A stretch of 64,000 nt of DNA. It comes from Cryomorphaceae bacterium (GTDB lineage Bacteria > Bacteroidota > Bacteroidia > Flavobacteriales_D > Sanyastnellaceae). The notes under the pieces were generated by a model. That model had not been told where the DNA came from, did no database searches, and was given only the letters and a program-made list of their open reading frames with translations. Positions 49,123 to 61,436 of the stretch are shown here, piece by piece; within the stretch, counting starts at the first letter, position 1, and each line of letters begins with the position of its first letter. A program made the position numbers and the translations under genes. The stretch is from NCBI GenBank assembly GCA_016124575.1, contig WGNM01000044.1, positions 1 to 64,000 of the forward strand, given 5' to 3'.

Positions 49123-49254
49123 TTTCGAACAGGTCTTAACGACGATAGAACAGTTCAGGGTTGATTGAGGTCTAATTGTTGCTCTAACATCCGCGCTGCA
49201 TGCGCGAGTTCGTTTATTCTGACTACATTAACGCCTTTGAAATCTGACCGGACC

Positions 49255-50268
49255 ATGATTATCCGCAATTGTACATTTTTTATGATTTTCCTGTTTGCAG
49301 GAATTTTCATTGGCGAAAGTAAAGGCCAGGAATCGCTTATAGATAGCGTTATTTACTATGGACGGACAACTGCTGTTATGCGCGATAGCGTGAACTGGGA
49401 TGAGCTGGAGGCAACCATGCGGATAATCAACAATGAGAGTGGTTTAGTAAATGCTACCACACACATGCTCAAGGAATTAGATGATTTTCATGGTCGGATT
49501 TGGGTAGATGATGTGCCTTATTTTGGAGCATCGAAAGGATGGGCACCGACGAACATGGAGATTGATTCTTTGAATTTGGCGTTGTATCGGCAGTCGAGCG
49601 CGAAAGTGCACGCTTCATTGTTGAACGACAACTTCGGTTATTTGCGGGTTCCGGGTATGATATATAGTAACGACAATTCTGCAGAGGCAATCTCCATTTA
49701 TGCCCAAATCGACAGCTTAGGCACGCTTGCGGATATTCACGGATGGGTGCTCGATTTGCGATTGAACGGTGGTGGTACCATGTACCCAATGCTAGCAGGG
49801 TTGGCACCACTGCTCGGAAATGGGGTTGTGGGTGCCTTTGAAGACCCTGCTTCCAACTACCGCGATGAGTGGATCATTAACAACGGCGAGGTGTACATTG
49901 GTGAGTACCAAAGTACCGACTATGGCTTGAGCGGTGTGCCAGATTTGTCGCACCTGCCTGTGGTGGTTCTCATTAGCGGTTTTACTGCAAGTTCTGGCGA
50001 GGTGGTAGCCATTTCATTTAAAGGCAGACCGAATACCTTATTCATTGGAGAAAACACTGCCGCATATACAACGGCTGTTTCATGGATCGCACTTTCAGAA
50101 AACGTTATTCTGCAACTTACTGAAAGCTACTATGCGGATAGGGAGGGGAATCTTTACCAAGCGACATCCGTTACTGCCGATGTACAAATCGACGGAGGAG
50201 ATGATTTTTACAACTTCGAAAATGATGTAAAGATTCAAAATGCAATTGAGTGGCTTGAGGCGCAATGA
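49255..50268 (+). CDS. S41-like (tail-specific protease family) exported peptidase
   Basis: A 337-residue exported protein (signal beginning MIIRNCTFFMIFLFAGIFIG and ending near SKG-Q). The core has S41 features: FGYLRVPGM, GWVLDLRLNGGGTMYPMLAG (the DLRxNGGG motif) and the nucleophile Ser in SGFTASSGEVVAISFKG, with a lysine and GENTAA block following. A PDZ domain is not evident. I reject the frame extension to 49165 since it adds 30 residues before the signal peptide. Bases 49262-49280, codons 3-9, carry a copy of the repeated element described at 61.3 kb. Single gene; the kdsC-like gene converges 3 bp downstream. Confidence 0.82.
   Translation: MIIRNCTFFMIFLFAGIFIGESKGQESLIDSVIYYGRTTAVMRDSVNWDELEATMRIINNESGLVNATTHMLKELDDFHGRIWVDDVPYFGASKGWAPTNMEIDSLNLALYRQSSAKVHASLLNDNFGYLRVPGMIYSNDNSAEAISIYAQIDSLGTLADIHGWVLDLRLNGGGTMYPMLAGLAPLLGNGVVGAFEDPASNYRDEWIINNGEVYIGEYQSTDYGLSGVPDLSHLPVVVLISGFTASSGEVVAISFKGRPNTLFIGENTAAYTTAVSWIALSENVILQLTESYYADREGNLYQATSVTADVQIDGGDDFYNFENDVKIQNAIEWLEAQ
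49262..49280 (+). repeat. Copy D of the TCCGCAATTGTACATTT element
   Basis: Nineteen bases identical to copy A at 61281-61299 (TCCGCAATTGTACATTTTT) and 20 bases identical to the complement of copy C. It lies over codons 3-9 of the S41-like gene, just downstream of the likely transcription start. No inverted partner is present at this site. Confidence 0.8.
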
Positions 50269-61277: not shown

Positions 61278-61324
61278 TTTTCCGCAATTGTACATTTTTG
61301 ATTGAAATGTACAATTGCGGAAAA
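61278..61324. repeat. Copies A and B: perfect 20-bp inverted repeat with a 7-nt loop
   Basis: Arm A, TTTTCCGCAATTGTACATTT (61278-61297), and arm B (61305-61324) are exact complements around TTGATTG. The transcript in either direction would fold into a very stable hairpin, but no T-run follows, so a simple terminator is unlikely. Arm B starts with TGTACA and CAATTG sub-palindromes typical of protein binding sites. Confidence 0.9.
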
Positions 61325-61416
61325 TAGTCGATTTCAAAGTGTAAATCTCATAAATAGATGATATACAGACGTATAAGTGTTGTTTTTAGAATCGGTTCCT
61401 AAATGGAAGGATAAAA

Positions 61417-61436
61417 AAATGTACAATTGCGGAAAA
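61417..61436 (-). repeat. Copy C of the 20-bp element
   Basis: Identical over 20 bp to arm B, in the same orientation, 92 bp further on. Relative to arm A it is inverted, so A and C bracket 119 bp. It ends 16 bp before the stop codon of the lipocalin gene. Confidence 0.9.

Follow-up and report, generated by a model that had tools for sequence, protein, structure and literature searches.

A 17–20 bp sequence that recurs at 61.3 kb and 49.26 kb of the DNA analysed here (the window, 64,000 nt of a Cryomorphaceae genome) is identical to the terminal inverted repeat of an IS1595-like element that is present in single copy and carries the gene T1. Sequence comparison between two species of the genus makes it probable that domesticated, and probably inactive, transposases bind the ends of the transposons they came from, which would serve as sites marking regions of the chromosome.

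Four copies of the arm in the window

The 17-mer TCCGCAATTGTACATTT has exactly four exact copies in the window: 49262–49278 and 61281–61297 on the plus strand, and 61305–61321 and 61417–61433 on the minus strand. An earlier note on this DNA had placed them there and had judged them not to be a product of chance. Allowing up to three mismatches returned the same four copies and added none, and shuffled windows treated in the same way contained 0.38 copies on average and two at most, which bears out that judgement. Three copies extend to 20 bp, as had been observed. The left arm (61278..61297, plus strand, TTTTCCGCAATTGTACATTT) belongs to sub-family 1, and its core is the T1 terminal inverted repeat. 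The right arm (61305..61324, minus strand) is its perfect 20-bp complement across a 7 nt loop (61298..61304), and the spacer of this hairpin-plus-spacer unit occupies 61325..61416. A third arm (61417..61436, minus strand) lies 112 bp from the second. The element had been called palindromic; this is correct for the inverted pair, while a single arm has no palindromy of its own. The remaining copy is a single arm, TTATCCGCAATTGTACATTTTTT (49259..49281, plus strand), which does overlap a gene start, lying within the first codons of an S41-like gene (ORF 49165–50268). It has TCCGCAATTGTACATTTTTT in common with the third arm, a likeness already pointed out in the note.

All of these arms can be compared with those of a sister species, Flavobacteriales MAG_179 (G001), which shows about 86% DNA identity and carries the same arms at the same loci. 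The left arm is identical in the sister species across the 17 scored arm columns and the core of the paired arms is unchanged, while loop and spacer have strongly diverged. The third arm has AA as its central dinucleotide here versus TT in the sister species (core TTTTCCGCTTTTGTACA), and the single arm in the S41-like gene shows no change.

Dispersed arms, inverted pairs and tandem arrays in the genome

The 14-mer core TCCGCAATTGTACA is present in 25 exact copies in the genome. With up to one mismatch there are 38 copies genome-wide, as compared with one for the reversed pattern. When the central dinucleotide is left free (TCCGCNNTTGTACA), 42 copies are found, 28 of them on the 139.8 kb contig (C4) to which the window belongs and which also carries T1; the dinucleotide is AA or TT in all 42. 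The note had named a lack of further copies in the genome and of conservation in related species as grounds for refutation, and neither was the outcome. Its suggestion of a genomic repeat family holds in part, with arms arranged as inverted pairs, singlets and tandem arrays of ~103-bp hairpin-plus-spacer units. In the inverted pairs TTTTCCGC is always at the foot; the smallest loops have 7 nt and the remainder tens of nt.

One array consists of 7.5 units of 103 bp on the window contig (C4, 74381–75150); others are found on C24 (4.2 units of 101 bp) and C8 (two units). Three related families were recognized: TTATCCGCAATTGTATA on C43, C28, C32 and C54, with 4.5 units of 102 bp on C43; CTATCCGC[AA/TT]TTGAAC on C44, C55 and C9, in units of 107 bp; and ATTATCCG[TC]GNAGTTGCA on C44 (74–94 kb) and C55. 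A scan for inverted pairs on the contigs with the motif (some 0.8 Mb read) gave 43 pairs versus one after shuffling, and no such hairpin was detected in about 0.4 Mb read from contigs without it.

Most sites are intergenic, lying mainly 3' of genes or adjoining terminators, and some are located within genes, for example ligA. The genes beside them are functionally unrelated, and the arm variant tracks the chromosomal neighbourhood rather than gene function. Singlets inside coding genes together with terminator-adjacent arrays suggest no single obvious function.

Several other features were noted around the arrays. The gene for the Bacteroidales small SRP RNA (C4:75204–75311, minus strand) lies 54 bp from the 7.5-unit array. 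A second, unrelated tandem set with units of ~97–134 bp is present at C8:61922–62449, C32:1–426, C54:13819–14093 and C61:96917–97340; several of these repeats hold GGATTA(C/T)TGC(G/A)TGATC-like inverted motifs, and the copies at the end of C8 and the start of C32 apparently represent one array split by assembly. A relation of the arrays to dif, ori or ter was considered and rejected: no dif-like site was found near them except for one weak partial match (C9), and the GC skew is without symmetry.

T1 and its paralogues have lost catalytic residues of IS1595-type transposases

Window coordinates continue unchanged into those of the contig, on which T1 occupies 109901–110812 of the minus strand, 48.5 kb downstream of the 61 kb pair. 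Its likely start codon is at 110758, giving 285 codons. It is flanked by arms at 109866 (plus) and 110897 (minus), both of the dispersed arm variant. The genome contains at least six such paralogues, each genome having been scored for its six best candidates: besides T1 these are T2 (C32, 61383–62252), T3 (C44, 17622–18491), T4 (C44, 73089–73958), T5 (C31, 45621–46469) and T6 (C61, 19193–20068), with roughly 24–40% identity to T1. Terminal inverted repeats measure 17 bp in T1, 13 bp in T3, 14 bp in T6 and 12 bp in T5. In the DNA read there is one copy of each element per lineage, among the six best candidates scored here.

Like IS1595 transposases, T1–T6 retain a zinc ribbon, a helix-turn-helix region and the last acidic residue. 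At the catalytic columns the first aspartate is replaced by T, Q, S, N, R or a gap and the second by R or N, and only the glutamate is kept; the relatives in G009 and G054 have an intact DDE triad, with aspartate at both positions. The Pfam profile DDE_Tnp_IS1595 matches the T proteins only in its C-terminal part (from 86–120 onward of 153 positions) as against 2–153 in active-looking relatives from other genera, and NCBIfam transpos_IS1595 matches them weakly and piecemeal, mainly at its N-terminal end, as against 1–215 of 215. In the AlphaFold model of T1 the N-terminal DNA-binding domain is predicted with confidence, and the middle is disordered without a series of strands and helices. In the model of an intact relative, also of modest confidence there, strands alternate with helices over the same stretch as in an RNase H core. 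A Foldseek search of the T1 model against PDB returned no significant match, as expected for a half-disordered model. Sequences and models support a loss of catalysis in the T proteins, which are probably inactive as transposases, although the remaining third acidic residue may leave them some residual, unusual activity.

Orthologues of T1–T6 are all present in the sister species. Between the two genomes dN/dS is 0.10–0.20 overall, with 0.03–0.08 for residues 1–120 and 0.12–0.35 for the middle, the former catalytic region. T1 and T4 of the sister species are interrupted by assembly gaps; an apparent frameshift in its T1 was dismissed since the break is a run of N. Selection on the T genes is purifying and strongest in the half that encodes the DNA-binding region, and they are not decaying insertion sequences.

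Paired direct repeats, CACAAAGT/ACTTTGTG, lie 22 bp apart upstream of T1, T2, T4 and the sister genes (e.g. C4 110813–110850). They are common to paralogues only about 24–40% identical in protein, and possibly represent a common promoter or a second binding site. At C16:19694–19832, where the contig ends, TGATTATCCGCAA is followed by the same CACAAAGT pair; a seventh T element, cut off by the assembly, probably begins here.

Comparable dead paralogues are also found in other Flavobacteriales, in G170 and G268 from another family. G170 contains six T-like paralogues lacking the first two aspartates (loci L277, L280, L283, L286, L289 and L292), and five of the six genes have clear end repeats of 13–29 bp of the GTCGCATG-TTTGCCA type. 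No palindrome arrays occur within about 30 kb of the T-like genes in G170, nor in the stretches read from G170 and G268. Arrays are therefore unnecessary for persistence of the genes, and gene domestication seems to be wider than the site populations.

The arms are conserved in the sister species

Draft assemblies were available for two species of the genus (61 and ~320 contigs). When 40 genomes from the same family and order were compared, the repeat families proved to be confined to the sister species, the rest being at the level of control patterns. A search of all GTDB species contigs with the hairpin pattern likewise gave repeated matches in Flavobacteriales MAG_179 and a handful of scattered singles elsewhere. 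Those of the scattered matches that were read look like unrelated perfect hairpins, and core matches in other genera are located in coding sequence.

In 17 aligned sub-family 1 arms there was no change at the 14 specified core positions (the three bases before CCGC, CCGC itself and TTGTACA, leaving out the free dinucleotide), compared with roughly 0.5–0.9 per position outside. Variation between the species was found at the free dinucleotide and outside the specified bases. The 14 arms of sub-family 3 are unchanged at every specified position but one. For 47 aligned arms of all families, identity was 0.928; shifted windows gave 0.800 ± 0.021, and not one of 2000 was as high as the arms. Single arms within genes are also kept. 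This conservation looks like the footprint left by a factor that recognizes a specific sequence.

The hairpin loci compared occupy shared positions in the two species, and array copy number differs. The units of the C8 array are alike within each species and unlike between species. Almost all homologues of ligA read from other genera keep the residue spacing in the stretch concerned without having the motif, which argues for an origin of this singlet by substitution and not by insertion. A large gene for a secreted protein has been deleted in the genome analysed here, and the breakpoint adjoins a hairpin (C32:70371; sister locus L109:13156–15251).

Arm variants correspond to the T gene of their neighbourhood

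The arms flanking each of T1–T4 are the variant of that gene's own neighbourhood. This was examined at 14 loci away from the T genes themselves, on contigs carrying a T gene: at 13 of them the arm variant best matches the T gene on the same contig (p = 0.0001 by shuffling of contig labels). T1-type arms have the forms TTTTCCGCNNTTGTACA and TTTTCCGC[AA/TT]TTGTACA, while the T4 form is ATTATCCGTGAAGTTGCA. In the T4 neighbourhood of the sister species, all seven arms at sites orthologous to those at 74, 76 and 93 kb, a spread of ~20 kb, read ATTATACGGGAAGTTGCA; the orthologous sites here have CCGTG, CCGCG, ACGCG and CCGTG-TAG forms, differing at the same few positions. Such a concerted change at dispersed sites is what one would expect if a binder common to them had shifted its specificity. 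The arms of sub-family 2 (C43, C28 and C54) are about equally close to the ends of T1 and T2. For T5 and T6, despite their flanking repeats, no dispersed arms were detected in the DNA read. A hairpin is located directly upstream of each of T1–T4, which makes self-regulation plausible.

Discussion

The identity of the arms with T element ends and their conservation suggest that the T proteins still bind their own old ends sequence-specifically. They would no longer cut arm DNA, and the arms would be kept since they are bound. T1–T4 may repress themselves via the upstream hairpin, and the arrays would arise by tandem duplication. As to the cellular role, our leading candidate, put forward tentatively, is a DNA-binding system that would act in chromosome architecture or insulation region by region, comparable in its logic to the way CENP-B occupies boxes in satellite arrays. 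It is preferred to a regulon because most sites are intergenic and often beside terminators.

The strongest competing explanation is that the system is still selfish. The hairpins would then be non-autonomous miniature elements, mobilized at a low rate either by the T proteins or by some active relative of IS1595, in the manner supposed for REPINs and RAYTs, and the arm would be conserved as a good substrate. The arms are ends of T elements, their pairs, singlets and ordered tandem clusters have the REPIN layout (PMC3116915), and ordinary IS1595 fragments are present at the ends of contigs C38, C51, C26 and C39. We nevertheless regard movement of this kind as rather improbable. The T proteins are without two of the three catalytic residues and apparently without the RNase H core, the hairpin loci examined are occupied in both species and never empty in one, with only the copy number of arrays changing, and the ligA copy arose by substitution. 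Moreover, the 8-bp target duplication expected of IS1595 was not seen at the T1 flanks, nor was a target-site duplication at the 61 kb pair. Binding by a regulator had been among the proposals of the earlier note, and the arms do behave like selected protein-binding sites; the predicted binder, however, is the transposase-derived protein encoded 48.5 kb away rather than a classical regulator. That the arm is the operator of a conventional transcription factor, placing the S41 peptidase under joint control with the 61 kb genes, is very unlikely. Non-coding sites are conserved and one copy overlaps a gene start, but the sites mark no such regulon: most of them follow genes or adjoin terminators, one is in ligA, others form arrays of several units, the neighbouring genes have no function in common, and the variants follow the neighbourhood.

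The hairpins are strong and near gene ends, as terminators or mRNA-stabilizing elements would be, yet we consider a function in RNA very unlikely too, and slightly less likely than the operator. The foot, TTTT-stem-AAAA, is reversed for an intrinsic terminator, ordinary terminators adjoin several hairpins, and conservation extends to unpaired arms, which point either way relative to genes. A search of Rfam gave nothing at the repeats that attained its gathering score, and the miRNA matches below threshold can be put down to the long hairpin. The recombination site that the note had also envisaged has fared worst. The two-box build of the arms, together with loops and a central dinucleotide that vary, is reminiscent of attC sites in their folded form, but the attC R-box is absent and array units repeat the same sequence. 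Where examined, the apparent insertions beside sister hairpins are a surface-protein gene lost here and not a cassette, making integron-like or invertible sites most improbable.

Domesticated transposases that bind their old ends, the reading we prefer, have a bacterial counterpart in layout. RAYT genes are low-copy, vertically kept transposase genes flanked by their own short inverted repeats, and REPINs form inverted doublets, singlets and ordered tandem clusters, with several repeat groups each adjoining its own gene (PMC3116915). All these arrangements are present here, T1–T4 likewise lying beside their own groups, but the genes are of another class: they derive from an IS1595-type DDE transposase and have lost catalytic residues. 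Y1_Tnp (PF01797) had no match in this genome, the control being positive in five of 14 genomes, and identity with RAYT was rejected because of this absence. The tag at the foot of REPs, GTAG or CGTC (PMC3733652), is absent as well, the arms beginning with TTTTCCGC, TTATCCGC or CTATCCGC. In addition, the arms are not palindromes themselves and the repeats are concentrated near the gene.

With IS1595 (ISXO2-like) elements the T elements share their terminal inverted repeats and, in the protein, the zinc ribbon and the helix-turn-helix region. They differ in that the first two aspartates are missing and that each lineage has one copy of the gene, which both species have retained under purifying selection. 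Bacterial MITEs likewise consist of IS terminal inverted repeats without a gene; here, by contrast, loops differ between loci and species, no target duplication was seen, and the arms are selected at fixed places.

Among domesticated transposases of eukaryotes, CENP-B descends from one of pogo-like type, and its target is a 17-bp box within alpha-satellite arrays. The T proteins resemble it as transposase-derived proteins apparently without catalysis, with a box of ~17 bp, to which binding is predicted, and tandem arrays of ~100–170 bp. The transposase family is unrelated, however, and the host is a bacterium. It is conceivable, if doubtful, that the system is a bacterial counterpart of CENP-B, with dead paralogues, private 17-bp codes for each neighbourhood, pairs and satellite-like arrays, and co-evolution of code and protein. 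The system has a layout like that of RAYT/REPIN, to which it does not belong, and a logic that recalls CENP-B. A limited search of the open-access literature gave no bacterial precedent for a DDE-derived case.

Domestication of DDE transposases with satellite-like arrays is familiar in eukaryotes, and the known bacterial parallel is the tyrosine-transposase system RAYT/REPIN. In the present case two sister genomes preserve the entire course of events, from selected genes without catalytic residues to four private site codes and the concerted difference at T4 sites. This makes it testable whether bacteria mark chromosome regions with the remains of transposons, and provides an independent case for why families of short palindromic repeats persist.
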